From NCBI RefSeq assembly GCF_026248685.1, contig NZ_CP111040.1, positions 186,001 to 250,000 on the forward strand: a stretch of DNA of 64,000 bases, written 5' to 3'. The position numbers and the translations under genes were made by a program. The stretch comes from Haladaptatus caseinilyticus. GTDB lineage: Archaea > Halobacteriota > Halobacteria > Halobacteriales > Haladaptataceae. The first letter of the stretch is position 1; each line of letters begins with the position of its first letter. Shown piece after piece: positions 1,761 through 27,056 of this stretch. Under the pieces are notes generated by a model that did not search any database, was not told the DNA's origin, and saw only the letters and a list, made by a program, of their open reading frames with translations.

Positions 1761-3152
1761 TTACTTGCTTTGAGACGCGATTATCCGTTCGCCATCAGGC
1801 AGTGAATTTGAGGCTTCTAAGACAAAGAAATTAGAGTACTGAATATAGTGATGATCAAGGATTGAGCCTGCAGGATAGGTTGTAGTAAATATTTTTCCAG
1901 CGCTAACAACAGGAGTTCCAGCACCAATCATTCCTTCAGGAGATGTGGTGAGGTTACTTGCATCTAATAGGTGAGACCATTCACGATTCCCGGTTTTCAA
2001 ATCAAGCGCATGAATCGCTGCTTGGATTATACCAGGGTTTGTGAGATCGATATATCGACCGCCAATATAGATAATACCGTTTGCTATAGTGAAATTACTG
2101 AAATAGTCGCCAACCAGCTCTTTTGTCCAGATCTGTGATCCTGTTTTTGCATTTAGGGCTGTTATCGTTTCCCTCTCGGAGTCGAAAAAGAGCACATGGC
2201 CATCAGCGACTGCGAATCGTCTATCTATAATGTTTTTACCACCAATCTCATGACTCCAATCAACTGTCCCATCCCTAACCGATCGTGATTCAACCGTAAC
2301 AACGTCATTGTCATTTTCAACATATTTAGTTCGGAGATAATACACTCGATTATCCACAATAGTATGATTCGCAAATGCCGAGTTGCTATCTGTTACTCGC
2401 CACTTTACAGATCCGTCTGCAGCATTTAGCGCAGTGCCGTCACTAAAGAATATAGTCCCATTAGCATAACTCAATGCTCCATCCCCACCGTCAGTTAGCA
2501 TACCAATATCCTTTGTCCGCCAAATGGTCTCACCACTCTTTCGATTGAGCGCATATGCGCCGTCACTATTCGAGGTATATAGTCGGCTTCCCACTACTAT
2601 TGGAGATGTCCATTTGAGTGTGTCTTTACGACTCCAAACAGTATCGCCACTCTCTCGTTCAACACCATAGAGACCTCCTTTGTTCTCTTTACTTATTTCC
2701 GGAACGTTAGTAGCAAAATAAATCAGAGATTCACCAACGGTGGGTGTCTTTGGTGAAGGGTAATCTGATTGTATCCATTGTTGATTTCCAGTTTCGATAT
2801 CATATGCACCAATAAATCCGCCACCCTCCGTGGGATCACTATTTGTCGTAACTGCAAGATAGACTGTCCCATCAGCGACGACAGGTTCTTTCGAGAACAT
2901 ACTGCCTGCCAAGTTTCTCTTCCATTTTGTTGCTGTATAGGGAGTTGGTCCGCTAGTATTGATTGTTCCAGTCCGTTGTGCATTTGCTCGGGCTGTATTC
3001 CAATTGATATCCTTTCGAATGTTGTTATTGTCCTTTTGTGCAGCTGCAGCCGTGGATTCAAGACTTACTGCACCCATGGTGACACCGACCTTCTTCAAAA
3101 ACGATCTTCGACCATTATCCTGACAATTCGATTGACAGTTTTGATTCATCAA
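1761..3152 (-). CDS. Tat-exported PQQ-type beta-propeller (BamB-like) protein
   Basis: 463 aa. The N-terminus has a twin-arginine signal (G-R15-R16-S-F-L-K-K followed by a short hydrophobic stretch), so the folded protein is probably exported by Tat. The rest is about eight propeller blades of the PQQ-like/BamB type, each ending in a D/N-x-x-(S/T)-G-x-x-x-W motif, for example YDIETGNQQW, ERESGDTVW, LNRKSGETIW, LNAKTGSQIW and LDLKTGNREW. Such propellers are usually binding scaffolds in archaea; no enzyme activity is implied. The gene is divergent from the beta-helix gene at 3367, and the same arrangement recurs at 15.2-19.1 kb, which suggests partnership at the cell surface. A TATA-like element about 26-32 bases upstream of the ATG (3178-3188 read in reverse) fits a leaderless transcript. 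ATG codons 1 and 2 are both possible starts. Confidence 0.85.
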   Translation of the reverse strand: MMNQNCQSNCQDNGRRSFLKKVGVTMGAVSLESTAAAAQKDNNNIRKDINWNTARANAQRTGTINTSGPTPYTATKWKRNLAGSMFSKEPVVADGTVYLAVTTNSDPTEGGGFIGAYDIETGNQQWIQSDYPSPKTPTVGESLIYFATNVPEISKENKGGLYGVERESGDTVWSRKDTLKWTSPIVVGSRLYTSNSDGAYALNRKSGETIWRTKDIGMLTDGGDGALSYANGTIFFSDGTALNAADGSVKWRVTDSNSAFANHTIVDNRVYYLRTKYVENDNDVVTVESRSVRDGTVDWSHEIGGKNIIDRRFAVADGHVLFFDSERETITALNAKTGSQIWTKELVGDYFSNFTIANGIIYIGGRYIDLTNPGIIQAAIHALDLKTGNREWSHLLDASNLTTSPEGMIGAGTPVVSAGKIFTTTYPAGSILDHHYIQYSNFFVLEASNSLPDGERIIASQSK

Positions 3153-3177
3153 TTGGTTTGCTAGAAATAGTACTATG

Positions 3178-3260
3178 ATATTTATCTACTGGTTTGTGAC
3201 TGCATTCATATGGTAAAAGTTATATACTAATGATAATAGTTGCTACTAACGAAAAATGAG
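3178..3260. promoter_or_regulatory. Conserved core of divergent promoter, copy A
   Basis: The spacer between the PQQ propeller gene and the beta-helix gene shares an interrupted but clear match with 15747-15829. Common blocks are ATATTTATCTA, ATATGGTAAAA, ATACTAAT and TACTAACGAAA, in the same order and spacing. Read leftward, ATATTTATCTA gives a TATA box at a leaderless distance from the propeller ATG. The other blocks may be regulator sites serving both genes (inference). Confidence 0.6.
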
Positions 3261-3366
3261 AGTTGGAAATTTAGGAGTATGTAACAGCGATATCTTTACT
3301 AAATACCATTATTCTACCGAATCACAAATTTACTATAACTTTACAATTTTCAGGAGGGATTCATAG

Positions 3367-6300
3367 ATGCAAACCTATAATATTGTAAATGAAGGTGCAG
3401 ATAATAGCGGAAATACAGCAATTGATTCCGTCCTACATGAGATTATTGATGAGAATACTGTCATCATATTCCCATCTGGTACATATAAACTCAATGAGCT
3501 AATTGTCTATTCTGGCCTCGAAAATCTCAATCTCATTGCACCAAATGGAGCTCGACTCATCCCTGGGCAATCAGGTGATAATGTTAGCTGGTTCGATGTC
3601 TACTCGAGTGGATTCGTACTCGATGGGTTCGAACTCGATATGCGGGACACAGAAATACCACCCTTTGTTCGAATGAATAATGAAGCAGGTGACTGGGAAC
3701 TCAAGCGTCTGGTCACGCGTGGGAAAGTTCGAGCAGCTACAGACTCCAACGTAGGATCAGGTGATTCATCCGACGCTCGAACATACTTCCGGCTATCTGC
3801 TGCAGAGGGGACCCGTGGACTACTCCAAGACTGTTATTTTCACGAAGGGTCCTGTGAACCGACTGAAGCGAGCAATCGACGAGCAATTCTCGTCGAATCA
3901 GGAAAAGGAGAACTCGTTTTCAATCGCTGTTGGTTCGAATTGTGGGGGGAAAACACAATTTACGCAAAGAAACCAGAGGGGCGGCTAAAAATTTATAATT
4001 GTTTCTGTCGAAACACACAAGTCGGTATTAGACTTGGAGGTAAATCTGAAGTGCGTAATTGTGTTTCGATCAAAGATGATATTCATCCAATACAGGCATG
4101 GTCGGGTGGATCGCTTCAGCGCGGTGTGAGCGTCGAGGCTGTCGATCCAGCAGATTCAGATGATGGAATCAATAGTTACAATGGGACAATTACAATCACT
4201 GACAGTGATTTCTATCATCGTTATCCGTCCTCAAGTTGTGGTGGACCGATTACAGCATCAGCACCGTGTGAGCGCCTTGATGTTCATAATGTCCGGATTA
4301 GCTATAATTCCGAAAAGTTCCACGATGCAATCTACACACTCGAGGGGCAAATGAGTAATGGGGAACCCGCGAGCCTGGAGTATCTCGGACTTGAAGACGT
4401 TCATGTCCATAACGATCACGATTACCAATATGCCATCTCAATCGGACAAGAGCCGACGGAATGGGGTACTGTCTCAGGAATCCTCGGGGGAGATGGACTA
4501 CAGACGGATTCATCGTATATTCAAAACGAAATGACTACCGATGGGGATCCAACACACCCTGATACACGCCCGCCACTTCCTAAAGCACCACCACTTGGAG
4601 AAGTCCCACTCCAATCAGCACAGTTAATCCGTATCGACAACACCGGCAACAATGTTGATTCATCCTATCAAATTACAGCAGGTACAGCTGCTCTCCCTGC
4701 AGGTGACAATGGGGCAACTGTCGCAATGGATTGGGGAGAGAATAATTCACCAGTGCGACCACCTAATTCAGAACAAGCGACTGGATCAGTTCCACCAGGC
4801 GGAGTCCATGCATTCTATGTGACTGGCGGTATCGTCTCGACTAGTGCTAGTGGATCTGCAACGTGGAGTGTTGACGGGGCATCCTTTACTCCTGGGAGTG
4901 TACTTACAACGAATACACTAACCAGCAAACAGTCATCGGTAGACGAATGGCATCAGGTTGAAACGAATGACAATTCAACCGGTGTAGTCATTGGAAAGCC
5001 TCTCTCGTCCAACGGTGGCCATCCGGCCCATGTTCGACTCCGGAATACGTTGACTGGTGGGTTCGAGTATAAAATCGAGGAATGGGAGTATCTTGATGGT
5101 ACACATATTACTGAAACATTCAACACACTCGCTGTATCCCCCGGTGAGTATAAACTGCAGTTAGGCAACGGGTATCCATATCGGGTAAAAGCGGGAACTA
5201 TCTCGACAGATGATGAGTTTGAGACAAGCCCATTAGGGGACTTCTTCGATTCGATACGACCCGTTGTGCTGGCACAGGTACAGAGCTTCGAAGGGTCGGA
5301 GCCGGTTGTAACGCGTGTATCTGAAGTTTCACCAAATTCATTTAACGCCAAGGTCCATGAGGCGGGGAGCGAAAGCCATCGTATCGAAACTATTGGCTAT
5401 ATAGCACTACAGCCAGGAACTGGCTATCTCAACGGAAAGCCATTCGAAGTGCACCGAACTGCAGAAATAGTCTCTGATAGCTGGACCCAGATTGAATTTG
5501 AACAACGATATACGAATCCCAAATTTGTTGCTGGATTGCAAACATTCAACGGGCTAGATACCGCAAATATCCGTTATCGAAATCTTACGAGTACTAGTGT
5601 CGAGATAAAGGTTGAAGAGCTACAGAGTAAGGATTCTGAAACAGCTCATATCAAAGAAGAGGTTGGCTATGCTGTTTTTGGTGATCCTTTGCTCGTATCC
5701 ACCATTTCGAGCAACAACCAGCGAGCCCGAAGTCAGTGGCAGCGTGCAAATTCAGTTGTCCAACCTGATGGCGTTGCAATCGCAAAACCACTCTCGTACA
5801 GTGGTAATCATCCATCTCATATTCGCATGCGAAATGTATCCGAAGGCAGTCTTGAATATAAAATTGAGGAATGGCGATATCTTGATGGATCGCATATCAG
5901 CGAAACATTCCATATACTCTCAATGGGGCAGGTCGAAGGGGAAATGCGACTTGACGATGGCACGCGCTATCGAACCAAAGGGGGGGAAGTACCGGTAAAT
6001 GATGAATTTAGGACAATTCCGTTAAATAATGTTTTCGAATCCGAGACACCAGTTGTATTCGCTCAGGCACAGACATACAATGGTGCCGACCCGATTGTTA
6101 CACGGATGCGAAATGTCTCAAGCGAATCCTTCGATATACGGGTGCAAGAAGAAGAGGCACAAAGTGGCCACCCAAACAATGAATCAATTGGCTACATCGC
6201 ATTGCAACAAACCACAGGCAAAATAAACGGCAGACCATTCGAAGTTCAGCGCACAGGACGATCGATTGGCAGTGAATGGGTGTACATCTCGTTCGAACAA

Positions 6301-6486
6301 GAGTATGAATCACCAGCGTTCATCGCAGGCATGCAGACATTTAGTGGAATCAATACAGCCAATTTGCGCTATCGAAATCTTTCTGGATCCGGTGTCGAGG
6401 TCAAAGTTGAGGAAGAGAAAAGTAAAGAGCCAGAGATATACCATGATTCAGAGTCAGTTGGATACGCTGTTTTCGAAAACGCTTAA
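3367..6486 (+). CDS. Giant beta-helix protein with six H-lectin-like repeat units (copy A)
   Basis: 1039 aa. Residues 1-385 form a right-handed parallel beta-helix of the pectate-lyase-3 type: the opening YNIVNEGADNSGNTAID and the following FPSGTY match the usual start of that fold. A proline-rich linker (about 390-415) and a beta-rich domain (415-515) follow. Residues 517-1039 are two near-repeats of about 260 aa, each made of three units of about 87 aa. The units carry HVRLRN..EYKIEEW, VTRV..NVS..F..KV..E..GYIAL, and NIRYRNLTSTSVEIKVEE..VGYAVF. The R-N-(V/L)-T-x-x-x-(F/V)-x-(V/Y)-K-V-E pattern resembles H-type lectin domains (PF09458), so glycan binding is inferred. No signal peptide or membrane segment is visible. 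A ribosome-binding site AGGAGGG lies 8 bases before the ATG and supports this start. It could equally be a structural or tail-spike-like protein. Confidence 0.8.
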   Translation: MQTYNIVNEGADNSGNTAIDSVLHEIIDENTVIIFPSGTYKLNELIVYSGLENLNLIAPNGARLIPGQSGDNVSWFDVYSSGFVLDGFELDMRDTEIPPFVRMNNEAGDWELKRLVTRGKVRAATDSNVGSGDSSDARTYFRLSAAEGTRGLLQDCYFHEGSCEPTEASNRRAILVESGKGELVFNRCWFELWGENTIYAKKPEGRLKIYNCFCRNTQVGIRLGGKSEVRNCVSIKDDIHPIQAWSGGSLQRGVSVEAVDPADSDDGINSYNGTITITDSDFYHRYPSSSCGGPITASAPCERLDVHNVRISYNSEKFHDAIYTLEGQMSNGEPASLEYLGLEDVHVHNDHDYQYAISIGQEPTEWGTVSGILGGDGLQTDSSYIQNEMTTDGDPTHPDTRPPLPKAPPLGEVPLQSAQLIRIDNTGNNVDSSYQITAGTAALPAGDNGATVAMDWGENNSPVRPPNSEQATGSVPPGGVHAFYVTGGIVSTSASGSATWSVDGASFTPGSVLTTNTLTSKQSSVDEWHQVETNDNSTGVVIGKPLSSNGGHPAHVRLRNTLTGGFEYKIEEWEYLDGTHITETFNTLAVSPGEYKLQLGNGYPYRVKAGTISTDDEFETSPLGDFFDSIRPVVLAQVQSFEGSEPVVTRVSEVSPNSFNAKVHEAGSESHRIETIGYIALQPGTGYLNGKPFEVHRTAEIVSDSWTQIEFEQRYTNPKFVAGLQTFNGLDTANIRYRNLTSTSVEIKVEELQSKDSETAHIKEEVGYAVFGDPLLVSTISSNNQRARSQWQRANSVVQPDGVAIAKPLSYSGNHPSHIRMRNVSEGSLEYKIEEWRYLDGSHISETFHILSMGQVEGEMRLDDGTRYRTKGGEVPVNDEFRTIPLNNVFESETPVVFAQAQTYNGADPIVTRMRNVSSESFDIRVQEEEAQSGHPNNESIGYIALQQTTGKINGRPFEVQRTGRSIGSEWVYISFEQEYESPAFIAGMQTFSGINTANLRYRNLSGSGVEVKVEEEKSKEPEIYHDSESVGYAVFENA

Positions 6487-6751
6487 TAGATTTAAAAATA
6501 TTCGACTGCATCCTTTCTCAACTCCACTATATAATATTGTCTGTATAGGGGGCCTTGCCACGGGTACGAACTACACCACAGAGTCCAGATTCACAATCAA
6601 ATAAGACTCAGGATTGTCAATATTTGAAAATTTCATTTTTGAAAATGCAAGCAGGAAGCGAGTTGTTAACAACGCCTTTATTTCTGAGTAACGGGTCCAA
6701 TTATCCTTCAGACACCTCATAACAATCAATAAGGGTGACAATAAATGACCT

Positions 6752-6919
6752 ATGGTCGAGAGTAGAACTATTGACCAACGAGAAGAAACGAAAGACACGA
6801 TCGAGCAAAGATGGGCCGTGGCAATTCACCTCAGAAAGTACTTACAGCGAACTGTTGATCTTTGCCATGATTTGAGGGGTCGACTCGATGCTCGGCATCC
6901 AATAATGGAGATTGTGTAG
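6752..6919 (+). CDS. Small helical hypothetical protein abutting the copy B beta-helix gene
   Basis: 55 codons, from ATG at 6752 to TAG at 6917-6919. The stop is directly followed by the ATG of the beta-helix gene at 6920. The product is charged and helix-forming (EETKDTIEQRWAVAIHLRKY, then RTVDLCHDLRGRLD), with no recognised family. The stop-start adjacency suggests translational coupling. No such frame sits before the other two beta-helix copies. It may be a genuine small gene or a chance open frame. Confidence 0.35.
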   Translation: MVESRTIDQREETKDTIEQRWAVAIHLRKYLQRTVDLCHDLRGRLDARHPIMEIV

Positions 6920-9900
6920 ATGCCAACCTATAATATCGCCCAGCAGGGGGCAGACAAGACAGGAGAGGTTGCCATCGACACTGTTCTTTCGAGACTTATC
7001 GGTAGTGATACCACGATCGTGTTTCCACGTGGGACGTATAAAATCAATGAGCTCGTGGTTCAGTCCGGTACAAATAATCTCGAGCTCATCGCACCTAGGG
7101 GTGCCCGCTTAGTGCCTGGCCGATCAGACGACAGTATTCGATGGATTGACGTCTACTCGAATGGGTTCGTGCTGGATGGTTTCGAACTGGACATGCGAAA
7201 TATAGAAATACCTCCATTCGTGCGAATGAATTCAGAGGCTGGCAATTGGGAAATCCGACGAGTGATTACCCGTGGGCGAGTGCGTGGGGCGACTGATACA
7301 AATGTTGGATCGAATAGTTCGTCCGAGGCACGAACGTATTTCCGGCTGTCTGCAGCAGCAGGTACTCGTGGGTTGCTCCAAGATTGTTACTTCAATCGAG
7401 GATCGTGTGCACCAGACGAAGCGAGCAATCGTCGTGCAATTCTCGTCGAATCAGCAAAAGGTGCACTTACATTCAACCGCTGTTGGTTCGAGAGTTGGGG
7501 AGAAAACACGATATACGCGAAAAAACCCGAAGGCAGACTTAAAATCTTAAACTGCTTTGTTCGCAATTCACAAAACGGGCTACGACTTGGTGGCAACACT
7601 GATGTTCAAAACTGTGTCTCAATCAAAGATGACCAACATCCAACTCAAGCTTGGTCTAACGGATCACTCCAACGCGGAGTGAATGCAGAAGCGATCGACT
7701 CTCCGAATACATCACAGGGAATCAATAGCTACGATGGGACGCTTTCGATTAGTGATAGTGATTTTTATCACCGCTACCCGGACAATAGCTGTGGTGGGGC
7801 AATTACTGCTCCAGCTCCATGTCAACGCATCAACATTCAGCGGGTGCGCATTAGTTATAATTCAACAAAAAGCCACGACGCTATCTATACGTATGAGGGC
7901 AGGATGAGTGATGGCACACCTGCAAATCTTGAATATCTCCAACTCGAAGATGTCCACGTTACAAACGATCATCGTTCTGAATACGGTATTTATATTGGGC
8001 AAGTACCCGATACGTGGGGAACTGTTTCTGGTGTGATTGGGGGCAGTGGCACACAGACGAACTCCTCATATGTCCAGAATCAGATGACCACGGGTGAGGA
8101 TCCTATCCAACCAAACACGACGCCACCACTGCCAAGTCCGCCACCACTTGGGGAGGTTCCGATGCAACAGTCACAACTCGTCCGTATTGATAATACAGGG
8201 GGTAATGAACCAACGACTTACCAGATTACGGCTGGTCAGTATGCTCTTCCGGCAGCAAACGATGGTGCGTCGATAACGATGTCATGGGGTCCGGATAGCG
8301 GACCAAGACGCCCACCGAACTCGGAGGTTGCCACAGGTACGATTCCAGCAGGGAAGGCGCATGCATTCTATGTAAGAGGAGGCATTATTTCAACTGAGTC
8401 CAATGGCCCTGCAGTTTGGACCGTTGATGGCGAGGCATACGAACCTGAATCTGAGGGACCAGCAATACTCACAAATAGAATTACCAGCGAAAAGCAAGAA
8501 GCTCGAAGCCAATGGCAACTGGCAGACACAGTTGTCCAACCTAATGGCGTTGCGATCGCGAAACCACTGTCATACGATGGCATTCAACCAGCACATGTTC
8601 GCGTTCGAAACATTGCAGACAGTAGTTTAGAGTACAGACTCGAGGAATGGCGATATCTCGATGGAAACCACACCAACGAAACGTTCCATACGCTTTCTAC
8701 AAGAGTAGGCGAACACGAAATCGAGCTAGATAATGGAACGACGTATCGAACAAAAGGAAGAAAAGTCGCAACTAATGACGAATTCAAATCTGTTTCACTT
8801 GGTGACTTCTTCGGTGCTGAGACACCCATTCTCCTCGCTCAAGCACAGTCGTTCAATGGAGGTGATCCGATTGTCACACGATTGCGTAATATCTCAAGTG
8901 ACGCATTTGATGTGCGAGTTCAAGAGGAAGAAGCCCAGGGAGGACATCCGAACAATGAGCAGGTTGGTACTGTGGCACTTGAGCAAACCGTGGGTAGCCT
9001 TGATAGCAGGTCTTTCGAGGTGCAACGGACCGGAGAAACAGTTAATCACGAGTGGTCTCGGATCGCTTTCGAGCAGGCGTATGAAATTCCACAGTTTGTC
9101 GCCGATATACAGACGTTCAATGGCTCCGATACAGCAAACCTCCGGTATCGGAATTTGTCTGGGTCCGGTGTTGAGATAAAGGTCGAAGAAGCACAGAGTG
9201 CAGACACTGAAATAGAGCATGCACCGGAGTCAGTTGGATACGCTGTTTTCGAAGGTGCTACATTACTGACTACCACTGTTACCAGCAATCAAGCAACCAG
9301 GGGCGAATGGAAACAAGCAGATTCCATTGTTCAACCAAATGGTGTTGTTATCGCGAGTCCGCTCTCATATAATGGTCCGAGTCCATGTCACGTTCGACTT
9401 CGAAATGTTGGTGGTAATAGCTTCGGATATAAACTCGAAGAATGGAAATACCTCGATGGCAGGCACATCAGTGAAACATTTCACGCACTCGCTGCAGGAG
9501 TTGGTAGTCGCCAAATCCGACTCGATGATGGTCGATCCTCTCAAGTAGAGGTTGGAACCGTATCCACGCCGGATAGATTTATCAGCGTTTCTCTAAGTAA
9601 TTCATTTGGCGCGGAAACGCCAGTCGTTCTTGCCCAGTCACAGACCTTCAACGGCGGCGATCCAATTGTGACACGTATACAGAACGTCTCAAATAATTCA
9701 TTCGACGTTCGAGTCCAAGAAGAGGAAGCCGAAAGTGGCCATCCGAATAACGAGACGGTAGGTTATATCGCACTCGAAGAGGTGGTCGGTGAAATGAACG
9801 GCCGGACATTTGAGGTACAGCGGACTGGGGCGACTATCAGTAACAGATGGTCTCGAATTAACTTCCAGCAATCATATGAAGACCCGAAGTTTGTGGCCAG

Positions 9901-10060
9901 TATACAAACGTTCAACGGCGCGGATACAGCAAACCTCCGCTATCGAAATCTAACGGGCACTAGTGTGGAAGTCAAAGTTGAGGAGGGAGAGAGTGCAGAC
10001 ACTGAAACCGAGCACGTTTCAGAAGCAGTTGGATACGCCGTCTTCGAAGACTCTGTGTAG
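6920..10060 (+). CDS. Giant beta-helix protein with six H-lectin-like repeat units (copy B)
   Basis: 1046 aa, full-length paralogue of the proteins at 3367 and 15945 with the same order: N-terminal beta-helix (about 1-390), Pro-rich linker (NTTPPLPSPPPLGEVPM), beta-rich domain, then two triplets of H-type-lectin-like units ending in VGYAVFE. It is the most diverged of the three; copies A and C are much closer to each other in the N-terminal domain. It has no divergent propeller gene; a short open frame abuts its start instead. As in the other copies, Cys residues in the helix domain (LLQDCYF, GSCAPDE, NRCWFE, NCF) are kept. No export signal is visible, so how it would reach the surface is unknown. 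Confidence 0.8.
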   Translation: MPTYNIAQQGADKTGEVAIDTVLSRLIGSDTTIVFPRGTYKINELVVQSGTNNLELIAPRGARLVPGRSDDSIRWIDVYSNGFVLDGFELDMRNIEIPPFVRMNSEAGNWEIRRVITRGRVRGATDTNVGSNSSSEARTYFRLSAAAGTRGLLQDCYFNRGSCAPDEASNRRAILVESAKGALTFNRCWFESWGENTIYAKKPEGRLKILNCFVRNSQNGLRLGGNTDVQNCVSIKDDQHPTQAWSNGSLQRGVNAEAIDSPNTSQGINSYDGTLSISDSDFYHRYPDNSCGGAITAPAPCQRINIQRVRISYNSTKSHDAIYTYEGRMSDGTPANLEYLQLEDVHVTNDHRSEYGIYIGQVPDTWGTVSGVIGGSGTQTNSSYVQNQMTTGEDPIQPNTTPPLPSPPPLGEVPMQQSQLVRIDNTGGNEPTTYQITAGQYALPAANDGASITMSWGPDSGPRRPPNSEVATGTIPAGKAHAFYVRGGIISTESNGPAVWTVDGEAYEPESEGPAILTNRITSEKQEARSQWQLADTVVQPNGVAIAKPLSYDGIQPAHVRVRNIADSSLEYRLEEWRYLDGNHTNETFHTLSTRVGEHEIELDNGTTYRTKGRKVATNDEFKSVSLGDFFGAETPILLAQAQSFNGGDPIVTRLRNISSDAFDVRVQEEEAQGGHPNNEQVGTVALEQTVGSLDSRSFEVQRTGETVNHEWSRIAFEQAYEIPQFVADIQTFNGSDTANLRYRNLSGSGVEIKVEEAQSADTEIEHAPESVGYAVFEGATLLTTTVTSNQATRGEWKQADSIVQPNGVVIASPLSYNGPSPCHVRLRNVGGNSFGYKLEEWKYLDGRHISETFHALAAGVGSRQIRLDDGRSSQVEVGTVSTPDRFISVSLSNSFGAETPVVLAQSQTFNGGDPIVTRIQNVSNNSFDVRVQEEEAESGHPNNETVGYIALEEVVGEMNGRTFEVQRTGATISNRWSRINFQQSYEDPKFVASIQTFNGADTANLRYRNLTGTSVEVKVEEGESADTETEHVSEAVGYAVFEDSV

Positions 10061-11009
10061 GGTCTGTTCTCTCAGCATTCTCTATTCGCCAATGAAATCA
10101 TAAAATGTGAATTGATCAAATGGCTTCTATCGCAATCTTGATCACGACCTACGAACTCACGGATTGTCCATTCGAATTAGTATAATAATCCATAGAATAT
10201 GGTCACAGATACTGTGACTTAGCGTACATGAAAACATTGAATTGTAGGTTACTAGGCTCTCTGTCTAGCGTTGAAAGAAAAACGACTAAGCTATCTAGTG
10301 ATACTAAAATACAATTTCGAAGAGATATCAGGCTGAACGTGAAAGAAGTCAGGCAGTAAATAACAATTATTTAGTAACGATATTTTGTAGATGTCGGGTA
10401 GAAATTCCCTCAGCCCTATTGGATCATACGCCCGACTCTCATGGGGAACACGTCTCAGGACATGGCCATCCCCATGAGATCAAATCGCAATATGTAGTCT
10501 GAGAGTAGTAATTGAGGTCAGACACGAGACCCAACAAGGATCAATTCTGGATGTCGGTGTGTTTGATCCTACAATAGTTTCACAAACAGATTTTGACTCC
10601 TTTAGAATAGAGTAAGTCGGTTAGTCGTCTCGAGTTTGGTTCACTCCTTATGCAAATCAAATATCCGCTGTGGACTATTTGGGGTAGTTCTGAATATTGT
10701 CGATTATGTCTAATTCGCTAGTGGCAACGTATGTTGATAACGTGGTCACTCGGGTCTGACTGTATTAACCCCATCATTGGTTTGATAGGTCACGCTATTC
10801 GATTCGGAGTCACGAACAGAAGTCGTTCGTTGATATCCAACTCTTTGGTGGGATTACATCGTTATAATAACGGGGGACACGCCTGTGTATTCCCTGCACT
10901 ATTGCAGAAACACCGCAGAAACAACCGCACTTGCTAGTAGTTGAGGGTTGCGTACAGTGGCTACGTCGGTGGAAGTTGTGTTCGTGTGGCTGGTGTAGTA
11001 GAATACAAA
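10061..11009. other. Long noncoding stretch with one hairpin
   Basis: About 950 bases with no convincing gene. Short frames here (for example 10731-10937) lack family resemblance and have poor codon structure. The only structured element I see is the inverted repeat at 10437-10479, listed separately. Confidence 0.5.
10437..10479. repeat. 11-bp perfect inverted repeat
   Basis: TCTCATGGGGA (10437-10447) and its exact reverse complement TCCCCATGAGA (10469-10479) are separated by 21 bases that include the palindrome ATGGCCAT. It sits alone in a noncoding stretch, so it could be a relic of an insertion-sequence end, a regulator site or a small RNA stem. Confidence 0.45.
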
Positions 11010-11026
11010 GGGGTTCGGCGAACCCC
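11010..11026 (-). terminator. Hairpin terminator candidate after the three-gene cassette
   Basis: GGGGTTC-GGC-GAACCCC forms a perfect 7-bp stem with a 3-base loop, 20 bases past the stop of the minus-strand coiled-coil gene. On that strand it is followed by TTTG. The position suits transcript end formation or 3' stabilisation. Confidence 0.5.
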
Positions 11027-11045
11027 CTGTATTATACGATCGTAA

Positions 11046-11846
11046 TCAGCCCTCCCGGTGAGCACGAACCCATCCACGTAGGTCGGGATGGTTCCACTCA
11101 ACGCGAATACGCTTTCCTTCGACTTTCGTGGTAGCGTCCACGTCCGAATTGGCGAGATGGCCATCGACATACTGGACTCCGGGTACCCGATCGCTCATCT
11201 CTTCCATCACGCGATAGCCATCGGTCATATAGGCACACCCATAATGGGTTGCAACCTCGCGATAGTTCAGATAGACAATTTGAGTGTTGGTTTCGCGAGC
11301 TTTCTCCTCTGCCCGTCCAAGAACGTGGAGGTATTTTTCGTGGATGCTCGTGTTTGCTGGTCGTTTGGTTGTGAAGTCGAGCAGACTGGCGTTGTCGGTT
11401 GATCGTTCAATTGTATCGTGCAGTTCTTTCCCGACGGTGGCCGCTTCGGCCACGATGTTCGGTGAGGTGGCATCGACGCTACTGCCGTCATCACTCGTAT
11501 AATCGCGTACGTCGTTGATGATTCGCGAGACTGATGCACGAATGCGTTGGTTCTGTTCGCGTTCTCTATTGAGTTCAGTCTGGAAGTCAGTGGTCACGGT
11601 TTCGAGGTCATCGATGCATGATTCGAGGGCGGCGGTTCGGTCGCGTTCGGTTGCAAGGTTTGCTTCAAGGGTCTCCATTTGATCGGTGGTGGTCGCGAGT
11701 TCGGTTCTGAGCGCTTCGCAGTCGTGCTCTAAGTTGCGGATGCGTTGGTCTTTGGCTGCTAATTCGGATTCAAGCTTGTCGACACGCTCAGTAAGGGCGC
11801 TCAGTTGATCGACCAAGGTAGCATTGGAGATAGTTGACTGGCTCAT
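11046..11846 (-). CDS. Coiled-coil protein of unknown function, third gene of a GC-richer cassette
   Basis: 266 aa. Residues 10-110 are a continuous heptad-rich coiled coil (LVDQLSALTERVDKLESEL and onward) followed by a globular C-terminal domain of about 130 aa containing YLNYREVATHYGCAYMTDGY and RIRVEWNHPDLRGW. I do not recognise a named family. It overlaps the 78-aa gene by ATGA, so the three genes form a translationally coupled operon. Base composition is visibly richer in GC than the flanking AT-rich spacers, which suggests acquisition from a plasmid or virus (inference). A coiled coil in front of a small domain is common in plasmid-borne DNA-binding or partition accessory proteins, but nothing here proves that. 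Confidence 0.75.
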   Translation of the reverse strand: MSQSTISNATLVDQLSALTERVDKLESELAAKDQRIRNLEHDCEALRTELATTTDQMETLEANLATERDRTAALESCIDDLETVTTDFQTELNREREQNQRIRASVSRIINDVRDYTSDDGSSVDATSPNIVAEAATVGKELHDTIERSTDNASLLDFTTKRPANTSIHEKYLHVLGRAEEKARETNTQIVYLNYREVATHYGCAYMTDGYRVMEEMSDRVPGVQYVDGHLANSDVDATTKVEGKRIRVEWNHPDLRGWVRAHREG

Positions 11847-12079
11847 CGATTGATCACCTCTTCAGGAGACACCGTGGTGGGACGGTGAAGGACGGTGTCC
11901 TGGTATCCACTTTCGACGATGGTGATCTCGCTGGCAGCAAAGTAGAACTGACACGGGTCGAAGAATGAGAACAAGCCGTTAGTGACGCGGGTGGTTTGCC
12001 ACGTGGCATCTGGATTCTGTGCTCTGGCCAAGTAAGTTGGAAGCGATACCTGGGTGGGTGAGTCGTGGGCGGCGCTCAT
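11843..12079 (-). CDS. Small hypothetical protein, second gene of the cassette
   Basis: 78 aa, no membrane segment or known motif. It is linked to both neighbours by 4-base ATGA overlaps (12076-12079 upstream, 11843-11846 downstream), which is strong evidence that it is translated. The middle has an aromatic stretch (LFSFFDPCQFYFAASE). The C-terminal half (TVVS-type loop, PTTVSPEEVINR) is unremarkable. Function unknown. Confidence 0.65.
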   Translation of the reverse strand: MSAAHDSPTQVSLPTYLARAQNPDATWQTTRVTNGLFSFFDPCQFYFAASEITIVESGYQDTVLHRPTTVSPEEVINR

Positions 12080-12480
12080 TCGTCACACCCCCGTTGTGTG
12101 TCAGTGAGGTCGGCTGGCAGATGGCCAGTGTGTTCATCGGTGGGGTGGGTATTGTCGGGTCGCGTGACGGTTTCGATAGAGGCGTGCGTGCGCACCCAGG
12201 CGTACTTGCCGTTAGGTGTGAGTTCGTAGCGATCAAGCTGGTGCTGTGTGTGGTCGTACGCCTCATAGTAGGTGTAAGTGAGTCGGTACAGGTCGTTGCT
12301 GGGGGTGGCGAACAACAACGTATGGGAGCCGGGCTCCGGCCCACGGTGAGTCAGTATCGGATCGACGTGCTCGTGGTCGTAGATGACGCCTGTAAGCGTG
12401 CGCTTGGTGGTTGTGACCTGGATGGGATCAGTGCGTGTGAGTAAGAGGATAGTCTCTGTGCGAAGACTGGGATCGGTCAT
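12076..12480 (-). CDS. Hypothetical protein, first gene of the cassette; has a broken paralogue at 20.1-20.5 kb
   Basis: 134 aa. Recognisable blocks are DPIQVTTTKRTLTGVIYDHE, HRGPEPGSHTLLFAT and YTYYEA, then YAWVRTHASIE near the end. The same blocks in the same order occur in the frameshifted copy at 20101-20507, so this is a real and once-duplicated family. No named domain is recognised. The first block resembles a small beta-barrel, and the frame is free of membrane segments. It heads the operon, divergent from the phiH1-like repressor at 12808, so repression by that protein is a reasonable inference. Confidence 0.7.
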   Translation of the reverse strand: MTDPSLRTETILLLTRTDPIQVTTTKRTLTGVIYDHEHVDPILTHRGPEPGSHTLLFATPSNDLYRLTYTYYEAYDHTQHQLDRYELTPNGKYAWVRTHASIETVTRPDNTHPTDEHTGHLPADLTDTQRGCDE

Positions 12481-12555
12481 TAGGCATCACCTCTCAACTG
12501 GTGTGCAAAGCGTGGTGGCGTGTGCAGGTTAATTGGTGGGTGCTGCAGCTCTCGG

Positions 12556-12575
12556 ACGGGACACTTTTGTCCCGT
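12556..12575. promoter_or_regulatory. 8-bp palindrome upstream of the cassette
   Basis: ACGGGACA-CTTT-TGTCCCGT is a perfect 8-bp inverted repeat 76 bases upstream of the first cassette gene. A degraded version (CGGACGAGACATTACAGTCC) is found upstream of the pseudogene copy near 20550. The retained position suggests an operator or promoter-proximal element belonging to the cassette. Confidence 0.45.
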
Positions 12576-12715
12576 GTGCGTGTAGAGGTTCATGCGGTTG
12601 ACTCCAAACGACCGCATGACGGGCGCGTGGTGCAAGCACGTGTCCGTTCTGAGTTTTAGTTAAACAACCCGTCGTGCAGTCGTTACTCTTTGTATGATTC
12701 TGACTTCCAATAAAT

Positions 12716-12758
12716 GTTGTCACAATAGTGTGCCAATTTGTCCTAAATTTGTGACAAC
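12716..12758. promoter_or_regulatory. Operator-like 10-bp inverted repeat before the phiH1-like repressor
   Basis: GTTGTCACAA (12716-12725) and TTGTGACAAC (12749-12758) are exact inverted copies separated by 23 bases. They lie between the repressor and the divergent cassette. A TATA-like TTCTATAAAT follows directly at 12761-12770, so a protein bound here would block the rightward promoter. Autoregulation by the winged-helix protein is inferred. Confidence 0.55.
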
Positions 12759-12807
12759 TGTTCTATAAATCGACGGGTGTAATAATAAGGAGGATTGACG
12801 GAATCTC

Positions 12808-13086
12808 ATGAGAAACCGGGCATCATGGATGAATAAGGCAACCGACCCGGTCCTTGAGATACTTGCTGACACGGGCTACGCACTCCCATCAGGAGCAATC
12901 TATTACAACCTCTCACATAAGGAGCAAACAGATGTTTCTAGACGCACCGTACTGCGCGCGTTAGATCCATTGAAAGAGCATGGATTGGTGAGAATTGCTG
13001 ATCAGACAGAGACATATTACGAGATTACCGAGAAAGGACAAAGATATCTTAGCGGAAATCTAGATGCTGAAACATTGGAATCATAG
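12808..13086 (+). CDS. phiH1 repressor-like winged-helix transcriptional regulator
   Basis: 92 aa. The order WMNKATDPVLEILADTGYA (helix 1), a helix-turn-helix around SRRTVLRALDPLKEHGLVRI, and a wing ending in YYEITEKGQRYLSGNLD is that of the haloarchaeal phiH1-repressor / PhiH-like winged-helix family, at its normal length. A GGAGG ribosome-binding site lies about 12 bases upstream, with a TATA box and inverted repeat before it. It stands divergent from the GC-richer cassette, as a repressor of that cassette and itself would. A virus or plasmid origin of the pair is inferred, not shown. Confidence 0.8.
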   Translation: MRNRASWMNKATDPVLEILADTGYALPSGAIYYNLSHKEQTDVSRRTVLRALDPLKEHGLVRIADQTETYYEITEKGQRYLSGNLDAETLES

Positions 13087-13676
13087 CTATAATTCGATCT
13101 TAGGTTCTAATAACAGAGGTACATCGTAGGAGCAAGACTGGTTTGATGCGTCGCCTCACAATACTTTACATCACTAGCTCGATCCGCTTTGCAACTTTTT
13201 ACAATACCTGTTGAAAATTCTTACGTAACTCTGGGAATATCCAAAACAGTCTACGATATTTCGTGCTGGCGAGAGATAATAATCGCTCTCTTTGAAGATC
13301 TTGCTATAAATTTCAACAACGACATCAAGCACTCAACAAACCACTCAACCGTAACTCGTGATGGTTGGTTACTTGTGGCAGCGTTTTCGCCACCAGACCA
13401 CACTTTGTGGCCCGAGCTTTATTTTTCAATTTCACCCTCTCGTGCTAATCGCGCAAGTCGCCGACGGGAACATCAACTTAGAGAGCTGGTGATCTTCAGT
13501 ATCTGAACAGGGAGGTCACCAGCAGCCCCATGATGATTACCCAGTCACGGTCTATGCTTCTCAATCAAGAAATAGTCGTGAGTGGATTGTCACAGGCGTG
13601 TACTGCGCCAATAATTGCAAGTAGTAGAATTAGACGGATCCGAGGATTTTACTGATGAGTAGTCAAACTTGAATAG
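13087..13676. other. Noncoding spacer
   Basis: 590 bases without a convincing gene. A 105-codon plus-strand frame (13189-13506) has no family resemblance and an unlikely composition. GCTGGTGA (13485-13492) and TCACCAGC (13516-13523) form an 8-bp inverted repeat of unknown role. Confidence 0.45.
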
Positions 13677-14612
13677 ATGGAAGCTGACGAAATTCATCCG
13701 CAGGCAAAGAGCGTCCTCAAACGCCAACAGTATATTCCACTCCCTCACAGCGAGCGCGGCCTTCGTCTCTTCCGACTGTTTACCCACGTTACCGCCAGAA
13801 TACGGAATCGGAATCCACCAACAGTCGGAAAAATCGTCAACCGAACGATTCCCGGTTCTGACGAACCGCTTGAAGCAAAATTGTATCTCCCGGAAGGATC
13901 TGGACCTCACCCGACTATCGTGTTTTTTCACGGCGGTGGCTTTGTTTTCGGGGATTTAACGACATACGACGTCCTCTGTCGGCAGTTGACCCGTGCTAGT
14001 GGGTGTGCAGTATTATCAGTTGCATACCGTCTCGCCCCGGAACATCCGTTTCCAGCAGCCGTTGAAGACGCTTACGCAGCAGTACAATGGGTGGCTTCAA
14101 ACCCTTCTGCAATCGGGTCAACTGGAGACCTAGCAGTCGCCGGTGATAGTGCAGGCGGGAACGTAGCGGCTGTCACATCCCTAATGGCCGCGGAAAAGAA
14201 TGGCCCTGAAATCACACATCAAGCACTATTGTATCCGGCTGTTGGCAGCGAAGCTGGACAACCATCAGTTGAACATCATACTGGAACCGTTCTAGATGAG
14301 CGTGACCTCCAGTGGTTTCGAGACTGTTACTTTGACAGAGAGATCCATGAGCGGAATCCATACGCAGATCCGATGAATGCCTGTGATCTTTCCGGTGTGG
14401 CACCAGCAACGATTATCACTGCCGGGTTCGATCCGCTTCGAGACGGTGGCAAAGCATATGCGGAACGTCTCGATGACGACGGGGTATCGGTTCGATATAT
14501 CAACTACGAGGATATGATTCACGGATTTATGTCCTACCGAGAGATCGACCGGACACATGAAGCGATCACCACTGTGGGTAGTGATCTTGCGGATGCACTG
14601 ATTTCATGTTGA
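13677..14612 (+). CDS. Alpha/beta hydrolase, HSL-type esterase/lipase
   Basis: 311 aa, the normal length for the hormone-sensitive-lipase family of esterases (alpha/beta hydrolase fold 3). Family marks are the oxyanion motif HGGG at residues 85-88, the nucleophile elbow GDSAGG with Ser158, the Asp in AGFDPLRD (Asp252) and His282 in IHGFMSY, so the catalytic triad is complete. YRLAPEHPFPAA is also characteristic. There is no signal peptide, so it acts in the cytoplasm on short-chain carboxylic esters; the physiological substrate is unknown. It stands alone, with long noncoding spacers on both sides. Confidence 0.9.
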   Translation: MEADEIHPQAKSVLKRQQYIPLPHSERGLRLFRLFTHVTARIRNRNPPTVGKIVNRTIPGSDEPLEAKLYLPEGSGPHPTIVFFHGGGFVFGDLTTYDVLCRQLTRASGCAVLSVAYRLAPEHPFPAAVEDAYAAVQWVASNPSAIGSTGDLAVAGDSAGGNVAAVTSLMAAEKNGPEITHQALLYPAVGSEAGQPSVEHHTGTVLDERDLQWFRDCYFDREIHERNPYADPMNACDLSGVAPATIITAGFDPLRDGGKAYAERLDDDGVSVRYINYEDMIHGFMSYREIDRTHEAITTVGSDLADALISC

Positions 14613-15269
14613 CCTCAGTACCCTCTGGCATTGCTCGCTCAGTGGGTTGCGGATACGGTTTGTGCACTCTTTCTCACACTCCCCTCTTCTATCGAACTTT
14701 ATGCGCATTATCGCGTGAATCCTCAGCGAGAGTCATGCTGACAGGGGTGCTCGTCCACTTGCTTCCTACAAAGAAGGCTGCTAGTGTCCACTCATCAAAT
14801 CCAATAATGTAGATTACGTGCTCACCATAGTTTATGGGTTGGAAAAGACGCGAATGGATGCGCGCGTCTTTGGAATACAAAACGATTCCAAGTGGTAGTA
14901 AATCAACTACCCGTCTAAAAGTTTCGATTGAGAACGAGTATTTAATAGAACAATGAGAAATTTCAGAGAAGTTCAATAAACATCAATATTATGACGAATA
15001 GATGGGATACAATCTAAACTCGCCAAACTACTCCAACACGTTTGCTATCAAAACCAGATTTGTTGGTTTTCCCGTCCAAACTTGTATTCGACTCATCTCT
15101 CCTGGTTCATGGTAAAAATCCTCACAAACACAAAGGATTTATATTGGCCACAAGAACTTGAAAGTTGCAGGAAAGGTACGGAATCGAGAGATTACGATAA
15201 GCCTTAAACTGCGAACCTTTCCTGTCATGCTTTCATATACTACCAATAAAATGCAGTACTCTAGTTATT
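14613..15269. other. Noncoding spacer with hairpin and 3' flank of the collapsed PQQ copy
   Basis: About 650 bases. Short frames on both strands have no family resemblance. It contains the inverted repeat at 14844-14871 and, at its right end, sequence matching the 3' flank of the intact PQQ gene (TTTCCTGTCATG). Confidence 0.4.
14844..14871. repeat. 9-bp perfect inverted repeat
   Basis: AAAGACGCG (14844-14852) and CGCGTCTTT (14863-14871) are exact inverted copies around a 10-base spacer. It could be an RNA hairpin or the remnant of a mobile-element end; it is 230 bases past the hydrolase stop, rather far for a terminator. Confidence 0.4.
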
Positions 15270-15718
15270 TCACGTACTGTGAGCTGCAATAGTTCGTTCG
15301 CTATCCGGTAACGAGGCGCAGGAAGGTTTGATTGTCTCCACTGTTGCTCACCAGTTTTGGTATCATATGCGCCAATATAGCCCTCACTATCAGTGGGACC
15401 ATTATTCGTTGTAGCTGCAAGATAAACCATCTCATCCTTAATAATTGGTTCGACAGAATACATACTACCATCTAGATCCATTTTCCAGTTTGTTTTTGCA
15501 TAAGGAGTTGGATCAGTTGCAGTGATTGCACCAGTTCGTCGAAATTTTGATCGAGCAGTTGTCCACGGAGCAGGCTGACCAACGCTTGTATCATTGGTAT
15601 CCGCTTTTGCAGCGACAGTTGCAGCCTCTATGCTTGCTGTGCCCATTGTAATGCCTACTGTTTTGAGAAATGTTCTTCGGCTATTTCCACAACTGTCAGG
15701 ATGATCATCTTCTTGCAT
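15270..15718 (-). pseudogene. Collapsed copy of the Tat PQQ-propeller gene (internal deletion)
   Basis: The first ~130 codons match the intact gene at 1761-3152: Tat signal SRRTFLKTVGITMG, then TARSKFRRTGAITATDPTPY, YLAATTNNGPTDS and GAYDTKTGEQQWRQSN. Directly after SNLPAP the sequence jumps to the last codons of the family. In the shifted frame the DNA reads ASLPDSERTIAAHST-stop, corresponding to SLPDGERIIASQSK of the intact copy. About 310 codons, most of the propeller, are therefore deleted, and the junction is out of frame. The open frame instead runs on to 15233 with a meaningless tail. The ATG at 15718 (not 15733) aligns with the intact start and keeps the TATA distance. The remaining product would be a signal peptide plus roughly one blade, so it is nonfunctional. 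Confidence 0.85.
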
Positions 15719-15746
15719 CTGTCCATATATCAAAAAAATTATTATA

Positions 15747-15829
15747 ATATTTATCTAATGGTTCCTAGCTACATCTATATGGTAAAAACTAAATACTAAT
15801 TACAAACTTTATTACTAACGAAATATGAA
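15747..15829. promoter_or_regulatory. Conserved core of divergent promoter, copy C
   Basis: Second copy of the divergent spacer described at 3178-3260, with ATATTTATCTA, ATATGGTAAAA, ATACTAAT and TACTAACGAAA in the same order. It is retained even though the leftward gene has been destroyed, consistent with its still serving the rightward beta-helix gene. Confidence 0.6.
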
Positions 15830-15944
15830 CATCGGGAAAAAGTTTAGTCATGACAATTATGGGCTCCACCATCTTTCAAATATTTTACATATATATCAAC
15901 CTATAGATATAAAAAAAATTATTAACTATGCGGAGTGTCGGTAA

Positions 15945-18900
15945 ATGCCGACCTATAACATTATTGAAGAAGGAGCAGATAATAGTGGGAATTCAGCAAT
16001 TGATCCGGTTCTTAATGAAATCGTAGGTTCTGATACAACCATTATCTTCCCGTCTGGAACATATTTACTTAATGATCTTGTTGTCTATTCTGGTATTACT
16101 AATCTACATCTAATTGCACCAAATGGTGCGCGTCTGGTTCCGGGAACGTCCGGTGATAATGTCAGCTGGTTCGATGTCTACTCGAACGGATTCGTACTCG
16201 ATGGGTTCGAACTCGATATGCGGGATATTGAGGTCCCACCGTTTGTGCGAATGAATAACGAAGCGGGGGACTGGGAACTCAAGCGTCTGGTCACGCGTGG
16301 GAAAGTTCGAGCAGCCACCGACTCTAACATTGGTTCGGGCAGTTCAAGCGATGCTCGAACGTACTTTCGGTTGTCAGCAGCAGAGGGAACCCGAGGACTA
16401 TTACAAGACTGCTACTTCCACGAAGGGGCTTGCGAACCGACTGAAGCGAGTAATCGGCGGGCAATCCTGGTCGAATCAGGAAAGGGCGAACTCGTCTTTA
16501 ATCGCTGTTGGTTCGAATTGTGGGGTGAGAATACAATCTATGCGAAGAAACCGGAAGGCCCGCTGAACATCTACAACTGCTTCTGGCGCAACACACAGGT
16601 TGGGGTTCGCGTCGGAGGGAACTCCGAGGTTCGAAACTGTGTTTCCATTAAAGATGATGCTCATCCTGTTCAAGCTTGGTCCGGTGGCTCACTCCAACGC
16701 GGTGTGAGCGTTGAGGCTGTTGTTCCAGCAGATCCAGAAAACGGGATTAACAGCTATGATGGGACTGCTACTGTCGCTGATAGTGACTTCTATCATCGCT
16801 ATCCAGACTCAAGTTGTGGTGGGCCAATTACCGCATCGACACCATGTGAACGGATCAGTATCAACAACGTCCGTATTAGCTACAATTCTGAGAAATACCA
16901 TGACGCGATCTACACGCTCAACGGCCGAATGAACGACGGTGATCCGGCGAATCTCAAATATTTAGAGCTACAGAAGGCTAAGATTCACAATGATCACGAT
17001 AACCAATATGCTGTCTCGATTGGTCAAACACCAGATCAATGGGGGGATGTAGCTGGAGAATTAGGTGGCAGTGGGCCACAGACGGACTCCGCGTATATTC
17101 GAGATCAGATGACTACCAACGGCGATCCTACCTTGCCTGATACACGACCACCGCTCCCATCTGTGCCTCCGCTTGGAGAGGTACCACTACAATCCGCACA
17201 GCTCGTACGGATTGATAATAGCGGGAATAACGCTTCCTCGGCCTACCAGATTACTGGTGGAACATACGTGCTTCCGGCAGGTGATGACGGTGCAACGGTG
17301 GCAATGGATTGGGGTTCGAATAATGCGCCAGTGCGCCCGCCTGATTCAGAACAAGCGACTGGTTCAGTTCCACCAGGGGAGGTGTATGCCTTCTATGTGA
17401 CTGGGGGTATCGTCTCAACCAGTGCAAGTGGGGCTGCAACCTGGACGGTTGATGGAACGCCATATTCTCCGGGCAGCGTCCTTTCAACAAATACGCTGTC
17501 GTCTAACCAGACGAACCGAGATCAGTGGCACCAGGTTGAGGCAAGCGATCAATCGACGGGCGTTGTTGTAGGAAAACCGCTTTCGTATAATGGCAATCAA
17601 CCAGCACACGTTCGCCTTCGAAATTCCATAACCGGTGGCTTCGACTATAAACTCGAAGAATGGGAATATCTTGATGGGGGACACACTACTGAAACGTTCA
17701 ACACCCTTGCGGTACCACCTGCTGAATACAAATTACAACTGAGTAATGACTTACCCTACCTAGTGAAATCCGGGACAGTGTCTACTGACCATGAATTCAC
17801 AACTGTTTCACTTGGAGATTTCTTTGGGTCAGGGCAACCAGTTATCCTAGCACAATCACAGAGCTTCGAGGGGAGTGAGGCAATTGTCACACAAGTATCT
17901 GATGTTTCAAGTGACACATTTGATGTGAAAGTTCAGGAGGAAGGAGGCGAAGCTCATCGCGTAGAAACAATTGGGTATATTGCACTCCAGCCGGAGGTTG
18001 GTCATCTCGATGGAAGACCATTTGAAGTCCAGCGAACAGCCGAGATAGTTACTGACGAGTGGACTCGTATTGACTTCCAACAACAGTATAACAGACCTCA
18101 ATTTATCGCAGGTCTACAGACGTACCATGGACTGGATACAGCGGGCGTCCGTTACAGAAATCTCACGAGTTCAAGTGTCGAAGTAATGGTTGAAGAAGAA
18201 CAAAGTGATTCTTCTGAAACAAATCACGCGACAGAGGTAATTGGTTACGCTGTTTTCGGGGAGCCAGCAATCCTAACAAAAACAATTTCTAGTAATCAAC
18301 CTAGTAGCGATCACTGGCATGAAATCGATCTAGACGTACAGTCTCCACGCATTGTTATCGCAAAACCACTTTCAAATAATGATGGTCAACCATCTCACCT
18401 TCGGCTTCAGAATGTGACGAAGAACAGTTTCCAGTATAAGATAGAAGAGTGGAAATATCTTGATGGGGTACACATAGATGAGATATTTCATATGATGGCT
18501 GTGGAACCAACCGAACAGGAATTACTATTGGATGATGGTTCTACCTATCGTGCTGAGGCTGGAACTACATCGATTGCTGGTAGTTTTATTAATGTCTCTC
18601 TCGGGAGCTCCTTTGGCTCAGAACGACCAGTTGTTTTCACGCAGGTTCAAACATTCAATGGCCCACAACCGATTGTCACTCGGGTAAGAAATGTCTCAAA
18701 TGACTCGTTTGGAGTAGGACTGCAAGAAGAAGGCGAAGACGAGTGGCATACACAAGAAGAACTTGGATATATTACACTTGAACAAACGTCGGGTCAAATC
18801 AATGGTGCCTCATTTGAAGTTCAACGCACCGAAGAAACGGTTACTGACCAGTGGACTCATATCACCTTCAGTCAAGAATACGAATCACCACGATTTATTT

Positions 18901-19067
18901 CACATATGCAAACTTTCAATGGTGTAGACACTTCCAATTTACGGTATCAAAACTTGACTAATACTGGCGTTGATGTTAAAATTGAAGAAGAAAAATCGAC
19001 AGATGGTGAAACAAGACATCAAAATGCGGAAGAAATTGGCTACGCTGTCTTCGAAAATTCAATTTAG
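15945..19067 (+). CDS. Giant beta-helix protein with six H-lectin-like repeat units (copy C)
   Basis: 1040 aa, third paralogue. Residues 50-250 are almost identical to copy A (for example SWFDVYSNGFVLDGFELDMR and the following RLVTRGKVRAATDSN), and the DNA is also very close there. The repeat units have drifted more. The domain order is the same: beta-helix (1-385), Pro-rich linker, beta-rich domain, two triplets of lectin-like units. In the second triplet some consensus acidic residues are altered, for example GVGLQEEGED instead of DVRVQEEEA. There is no signal peptide. A weak GGAG precedes the ATG by about 10 bases. The divergent propeller partner is a pseudogene, so this copy either works alone or shares the intact propeller at 1761. 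Confidence 0.8.
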   Translation: MPTYNIIEEGADNSGNSAIDPVLNEIVGSDTTIIFPSGTYLLNDLVVYSGITNLHLIAPNGARLVPGTSGDNVSWFDVYSNGFVLDGFELDMRDIEVPPFVRMNNEAGDWELKRLVTRGKVRAATDSNIGSGSSSDARTYFRLSAAEGTRGLLQDCYFHEGACEPTEASNRRAILVESGKGELVFNRCWFELWGENTIYAKKPEGPLNIYNCFWRNTQVGVRVGGNSEVRNCVSIKDDAHPVQAWSGGSLQRGVSVEAVVPADPENGINSYDGTATVADSDFYHRYPDSSCGGPITASTPCERISINNVRISYNSEKYHDAIYTLNGRMNDGDPANLKYLELQKAKIHNDHDNQYAVSIGQTPDQWGDVAGELGGSGPQTDSAYIRDQMTTNGDPTLPDTRPPLPSVPPLGEVPLQSAQLVRIDNSGNNASSAYQITGGTYVLPAGDDGATVAMDWGSNNAPVRPPDSEQATGSVPPGEVYAFYVTGGIVSTSASGAATWTVDGTPYSPGSVLSTNTLSSNQTNRDQWHQVEASDQSTGVVVGKPLSYNGNQPAHVRLRNSITGGFDYKLEEWEYLDGGHTTETFNTLAVPPAEYKLQLSNDLPYLVKSGTVSTDHEFTTVSLGDFFGSGQPVILAQSQSFEGSEAIVTQVSDVSSDTFDVKVQEEGGEAHRVETIGYIALQPEVGHLDGRPFEVQRTAEIVTDEWTRIDFQQQYNRPQFIAGLQTYHGLDTAGVRYRNLTSSSVEVMVEEEQSDSSETNHATEVIGYAVFGEPAILTKTISSNQPSSDHWHEIDLDVQSPRIVIAKPLSNNDGQPSHLRLQNVTKNSFQYKIEEWKYLDGVHIDEIFHMMAVEPTEQELLLDDGSTYRAEAGTTSIAGSFINVSLGSSFGSERPVVFTQVQTFNGPQPIVTRVRNVSNDSFGVGLQEEGEDEWHTQEELGYITLEQTSGQINGASFEVQRTEETVTDQWTHITFSQEYESPRFISHMQTFNGVDTSNLRYQNLTNTGVDVKIEEEKSTDGETRHQNAEEIGYAVFENSI

Positions 19068-21935: not shown

Positions 21936-22059
21936 TTGAATGTATAAATTGGTTCAAGCAACTATTCTGTTTCGGAAAAGATCCATCATAAATTAATTTT
22001 GCTTTAGAATTCGCGTCGGAACCAAAGTAATATATCCTTCGAGCAAACTCAACTTAGTA

Positions 22060-23337: not shown

Positions 23338-23338
23338 C

Positions 23339-24424: not shown

Positions 24425-24499
24425 TATTGAAATATTTTATAATTTATATATAATCTCGATATCCGATGCGTTTTTATCCTGGTAGGGTATTAACTAATT

Positions 24500-25915: not shown

Positions 25916-25930
25916 AAAATATAATTAATA

Positions 25931-26956: not shown

Positions 26957-27056
26957 CGATATTGCAGTAGGAATGATGAACTCCTATATGAAAAATATTC
27001 CCTTTATGTAGAATTTCATGGTGATTATCTAATAGATGCACTACGGATACATATAA

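Follow-up and report, generated by a model that had tools for sequence, protein, structure and literature searches.

Near-obligate triplets of H-lectin-like units in beta-helix proteins of Haladaptatus caseinilyticus

How could proteins devoid of any recognizable export signal come to carry what looks like six copies of a sugar-binding domain, and what would they do with them? The question is raised by a 64,000-nucleotide stretch (hereafter the window; contig NZ_CP111040.1, positions 186,001 to 250,000) of the archaeon Haladaptatus caseinilyticus, which lies in a 607-kb replicon (the genome has seven contigs and 4.8 Mb in all) and has a guanine-plus-cytosine content of 45%, versus 57-60% in stretches sampled from the 2.6-Mb contig. 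The window encodes three large proteins, named here P1, P2 and P3 (1039, 1046 and 1040 amino acids (aa)), which are pairwise 59-70% identical from end to end. An earlier note, made from the sequence alone, had described three paralogues of about 1040 aa whose C-terminal half is built of two triplets of units, and the open reading frames (ORFs), a module profile and the unit classes bear this out. We consider it probable that these proteins combine a beta-helix that binds or acts on polysaccharide with two single-chain, ring-like modules of H-lectin type, which would tether their passengers to a glycan surface.

A module of three unlike units

The C-terminal half of P1-P3 consists of two copies of a ~260-aa module, and a profile built from the six modules of the window finds each of them again at 450-469 bits. 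Each module comprises three ~85-aa units that fall into classes A, B and C, arranged as ABCABC in all three proteins. The unit core reported earlier, R-N-(V/L)-(T/S)-x-x-x-F-x-(V/Y)-(K/R)-(V/I)-E, holds, and R, E, H and E residues are kept in 91-100% of the units of all three classes (109 aligned triplets). These four residues may serve either to hold a ring together or to bind sugar.

The module is a near-obligate triplet of units A, B and C. A scan of contigs with P2 alone gave no match, its patterns being too specific, and the triplet alignment was the query that led to 79 loci. In the fetched loci, exactly 3, 6 or 9 units are found in 138 of the 143 ORFs with any unit match, a count that includes overlapping loci of one gene and that draws mostly on loci found by the triplet query. 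The unit orders are ABC (94 ORFs), ABCABC (23), CAB (8), CABCAB (4), CABCABCAB (6) and BCA (3). The five exceptions comprise the two ORFs into which a frameshift splits one ABC triplet, a weak single match, an array that is degenerate and an ORF of 106 aa judged spurious. Because the triplet query could itself produce multiples of three, a separate scan was run with a single-unit profile on 284 Halobacteria genomes; as counted from the scan table, leaving aside the window's genome, in which scores were capped, 31 of 34 proteins have 3, 6 or 9 units.

In the permuted proteins most units can be classed without ambiguity, the margin often being 20-50 bits, while L136 and L139 have one weakly classed unit each; L125, a protein of 286 aa, is hardly more than C-A-B. 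On its most economical reading, a tree of the re-ordered triplets contains four order changes and places most CAB members together; the well-supported branches alone force fewer changes, at least two. Five proteins with CAB order and 6 or 9 units, from Haloferax, Halorubrum, Halovivax and Fodinibius (L105, L106, L107, L110 and L115), have no evident signal peptide.

Permutation without loss requires that the first and last units be adjacent in the fold, which points to a closed three-fold ring, that is, a covalent trimer of H-lectin type whose closure we infer from the permutations. H-type lectins work as trimers or hexamers, and Helix pomatia agglutinin (HPA) consists of two homotrimers with six sugar sites (PMC8431231). 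The near-obligate triplets and the permutations in relatives together suggest a fused trimer; with one three-fold ring per module, a six-unit chain would have the content of the HPA hexamer.

Likeness to H-type lectins

For structural evidence, the second triplet of P2 was modelled with AlphaFold2 on an alignment of 82 natural sequences; the model shows about six strands per unit (predicted local distance difference test (pLDDT) 94.3, predicted template modelling score (pTM) 0.93). Compared with the PDB by Foldseek, it resembles the H-type lectins SLL-2 (3wmp; target-normalized template modelling score (TMt) 0.61, probability 0.84) and HPA (2cgy; TMt 0.53, probability 0.51), which share the six-stranded unit and belong to PF09458. 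It also resembles the AP22 gp53 protein (probability 0.89) and the R2 pyocin fibre (probability 0.99), whose feet (PF21882) are trimeric discoidin-like lectin folds (PMC6363177). In sequence, P3 matches the Pfam family H_lectin (PF09458) with an E-value of 1.9e-8 and 34.7 bits, above the cut-off of 24. At the level of single units, 8 of 42 reach E <= 0.01 against H_lectin, 8e-7 being the best value, and 1 of 42 matches the tail-fibre family Gp53-like_C (PF21882). The likeness has its limits. Unlike known H-type lectins, P1-P3 carry three unlike units per chain, repeated twice, with a sequence mostly under the Pfam cut-off; and whereas the feet of the pyocin and of AP22 each assemble from three separate, identical chains on a virus-type fibre (PMC6363177), the units here are fused and cellular.

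The units could instead be independent beads on a string, with counts of three reflecting repeat duplication. Tandem repeats often amplify in blocks, and ring packing is not proven by pTM alone, but we hold this improbable: the three classes are distinct and of old origin, permuted orders retain exactly one of each, counts in archaea and in many bacterial phyla rarely depart from multiples of three, and such a pTM over the entire chain amounts to a confident mutual placement of the units.

Several observations weigh against the lectin-ring reading. First, P2 remains under the H_lectin cut-off (3e-4, 21.3 bits), P1 has no Pfam match whatever, and PDB sequence searches with triplet and unit profiles found no solved H-type lectin. 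Second, the Foldseek E-values against the PDB are weak (0.16 to 2, about 1-2 for SLL-2 and HPA), and the alignments cover single units only, never a whole triplet. Third, confidence in the full-length model is low (pLDDT 69, pTM 0.46), too low to derive the relative placement of the two triplets or the detail of the beta-helix. Finally, neither a signal peptide nor a Tat (twin-arginine) motif is found at the N-terminus of P1-P3, which leaves their export unexplained. On balance, the sequence matches and the triplet model largely support an H-lectin fold at the level of kind. The H-lectin-like character proposed earlier thus stands on the P3 match, the eight units, the six strands and the Foldseek likeness, with P1 and P2 lacking an above-threshold match. 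The earlier note had also not seen such a multivalent glycan-binding surface or tail-spike-like protein described for haloarchaea. A literature search gave no paper, but in public plasmid annotation some Halocatena relatives are named 'H-type lectin domain-containing protein', so the domain name is present in haloarchaeal records and is not new there.

Carriers of the module and the beta-helix half

The triplet is not confined to beta-helix proteins. In other haloarchaea it is fused to Peptidase_S8 subtilases, CAP, Thioredoxin_4, GH26 and PKD/VWD domains, as well as to a weak GH-type hairpin domain, and many of these fusion proteins bear Tat motifs. Relatives extend to Aenigmatarchaeota, Njordarchaeota and many bacterial phyla. 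Within Halobacteria, 26 of 292 genomes have a match to the triplet profile, compared with 3 of 292 by PF09458. This fusion pattern is the behaviour of a carbohydrate-binding add-on, judging by analogy.

In the favoured reading, whose computed part comprises the units, their near-obligate triplets, the permutations, the confident single-triplet model and the modularity, the right-handed beta-helix half would bind or act on polysaccharide, and units A, B and C of one chain would pack as a closed three-fold ring. One chain would then carry two trimers with up to six putative sugar sites, for which HPA needs six chains. The module would work in the manner of a carbohydrate-binding module, as a portable domain that tethers whatever it is fused to (a beta-helix, subtilase, CAP or thioredoxin-like protein, or a GH26-like enzyme) to a glycan surface, for instance S-layer glycan or exopolysaccharide. 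The inferred part of this proposal covers the packing of the units into rings and how the two rings relate, as well as sugar binding, beta-helix activity and extracellular location.

The same breadth of partners, subtilases included, suits a structural or stabilizing domain of exported proteins that is no lectin, and a similar discoidin-like domain in the Tk-SP subtilisin appears to raise stability (PMC5701251). We give this explanation a minor though appreciable chance. The R-E-H-E residues in all three classes exceed the obvious needs of a scaffold, although they could hold the ring together, and the fusions to GH26-like and beta-helix domains, along with the HPA- and SLL-2-like fold, favour sugar binding.

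The N-terminal half had been called pectate-lyase-3-like. Structure comparison, based on the low-confidence full-length model, supports a right-handed beta-helix; the family assignment is not supported by Pfam, as P1-P3 have no match to PF12708 (pectate lyase 3) or to any Pfam lyase, and Beta_helix (PF13229) is found below threshold only. The best structural matches, starting at an E-value of 2e-5, are polysaccharide-acting proteins with a right-handed beta-helix, namely PL6 alginate lyase, RbmB, AlgE4, GH28 and tailspikes; compared with PL6 alginate lyase, RbmB, AlgE4 and GH28, this half differs in its low sequence identity (10-13%) and in the lack of a Pfam polysaccharide lyase or glycoside hydrolase match. 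It is strongly conserved within the genus; Cys156, Cys163, Cys188, Cys232 and Cys291 are invariant despite the lack of a signal peptide, and versions without lectin units occur. Matches to PapG in a first PDB search (E 0.055), located in the beta-helix region, were regarded as fortuitous.

The earlier comparison to tail spikes raises the possibility that P1-P3 are tail spikes or other parts of the virion of a virus that is integrated or carried on a plasmid. The parallel in architecture is real: in the tailspike LKA1 gp49, a beta-helix domain of depolymerase type is followed by a C-terminal lectin-like jelly roll (PMC5701251), and P1-P3 likewise join a beta-helix to a discoidin-like domain without a signal peptide. 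Moreover, the triplet profile scores 85.9 bits on the N-terminal ~280 aa of gp7 of Halorubrum tailed virus 25 (L178, MZ334521), where the third unit is degenerate; the annotation of gp7 reads 'laminin G domain-containing'. One match in a library of predicted viral structures spans the whole triplet (query-normalized template modelling score 0.78), and may be this same gp7, judged by length only. The viral reading is nevertheless very improbable. No phage genes, structural ones included, were recognized near P1-P3, where polysaccharide-synthesis, sulfatase and permease genes are found instead; searches of phage and viral collections (viral contigs, phage records) gave no relative of the full proteins; and the proteins have a conserved cellular partner gene, both chromosomal and plasmid-borne. 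LKA1 gp49 is viral, homotrimeric and has one lectin-like unit per chain, whereas the fused units here would give a monomer. A viral origin was rejected on gene context, despite the triplet-like region in one archaeal virus.

Gene starts, propeller partner and export

An N-terminal signal extension of P1-P3 is excluded because an in-frame stop abuts each start codon (Table 1). Of 28 listed family members, 27 share this arrangement, the exception being L062; in 14 selected loci it holds for 15 of 15 family genes, as against 7 of 114 other ORFs that are 250 aa or longer. Upstream of the start, 17 of 18 members also have an open stretch in the same frame, 33-92 codons long; we do not claim it as a leader gene, its peptides differing among members.

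Table 1. Coordinates of the features discussed, in window positions
Feature	Positions	Strand	Remark
PQQ_2-type beta-propeller	1761..3152	-	463 aa; Tat-type twin-arginine motif; divergent from P1, 215 bp apart
In-frame TAG before P1	3364..3366	+	right before start
P1	3367..6486	+	1039 aa
P1 beta-helix	about 3367-4596	+	
P1 middle beta domain	about 4597-4911	+	
P1 triplet 1	4912-5682	+	
P1 triplet 2	5695-6483	+	
In-frame TAG before P2	6917..6919	+	right before start
P2	6920..10060	+	1046 aa
P2 beta-helix	about 6920-8149	+	
P2 middle domain	about 8150-8470	+	
P2 triplet 1	8471-9259	+	
P2 triplet 2	9266-10057	+	modelled, pLDDT 94
Example unit A, P2 second triplet	9263..9511	+	
Example unit B, P2 second triplet	9539..9790	+	
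Example unit C, P2 second triplet	9803..10057	+	
Truncated propeller copy	15233..15733	-	166 aa; Tat motif kept; divergent from P3, 212 bp apart
In-frame TAA before P3	15942..15944	+	right before start
P3	15945..19067	+	1040 aa; Pfam H_lectin above cut-off
P3 beta-helix	about 15945-17174	+	
P3 middle domain	about 17175-17489	+	
P3 triplet 1	17490-18260	+	
P3 triplet 2	18273-19064	+	

The conserved partner encodes a beta-propeller. In the searched genomes, all 20 closest relatives of the window's propeller (319-1047 bits, the window gene included) lie divergently upstream of a beta-helix gene, at 215-702 bp in 19 pairs and at 4039 bp in one; among the next 19 relatives (down to 209 bits), 2 are so paired. 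Reciprocally, 21 of 28 beta-helix genes have a divergent propeller partner. The pair is seen in genomes G000-G008 and G010, on chromosomes and plasmids, and the window holds an apparent duplication of it (1761-6486 and 15233-19067), the second propeller being truncated. A joint function of propeller and beta-helix protein is likely. In five Haladaptatus genomes (G000, G002, G003, G006 and G008), a more distant PQQ-like propeller lies ~2 kb from a lectin-triplet gene without a beta-helix, which in the window's genome is thioredoxin-like (type L046).

Hitchhiker export by the Tat route is known for PaoABC of Escherichia coli (PMC4273604). By a comparable and still speculative route, to which we assign a low probability, the signal-less, folded beta-helix-lectin protein might cross the membrane bound to the propeller with its Tat signal, both then acting on the polysaccharide of the cell itself or of a neighbour, held by single-chain lectin trimers.

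Downstream of the beta-helix-lectin genes, positions 20805-33943 of the window encode GT4 and GT2 glycosyltransferases, three sulfatase-family proteins and a polysaccharide flippase; permease genes are also among the surroundings of P1-P3. With glycosyltransferases, sulfatases and a flippase downstream, an exopolysaccharide is a plausible substrate of the beta-helix-lectins, as far as gene context can tell.

The near-obligate triplet, its circular permutation, its modularity and the conserved propeller partner go beyond what the earlier note had proposed. If the favoured reading is true, an obligate lectin homotrimer was turned into one chain, a module fit for fusion to nearly every kind of exported protein, and its repeated circular permutation would amount to a natural experiment on ring closure. 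The reading would also account for a family mostly missed by Pfam, and would offer genetically encodable, salt-stable tri- and hexavalent lectins. Finally, with a signal-less protein so strictly paired to a Tat-type propeller, hitchhiker export in archaea becomes directly testable.

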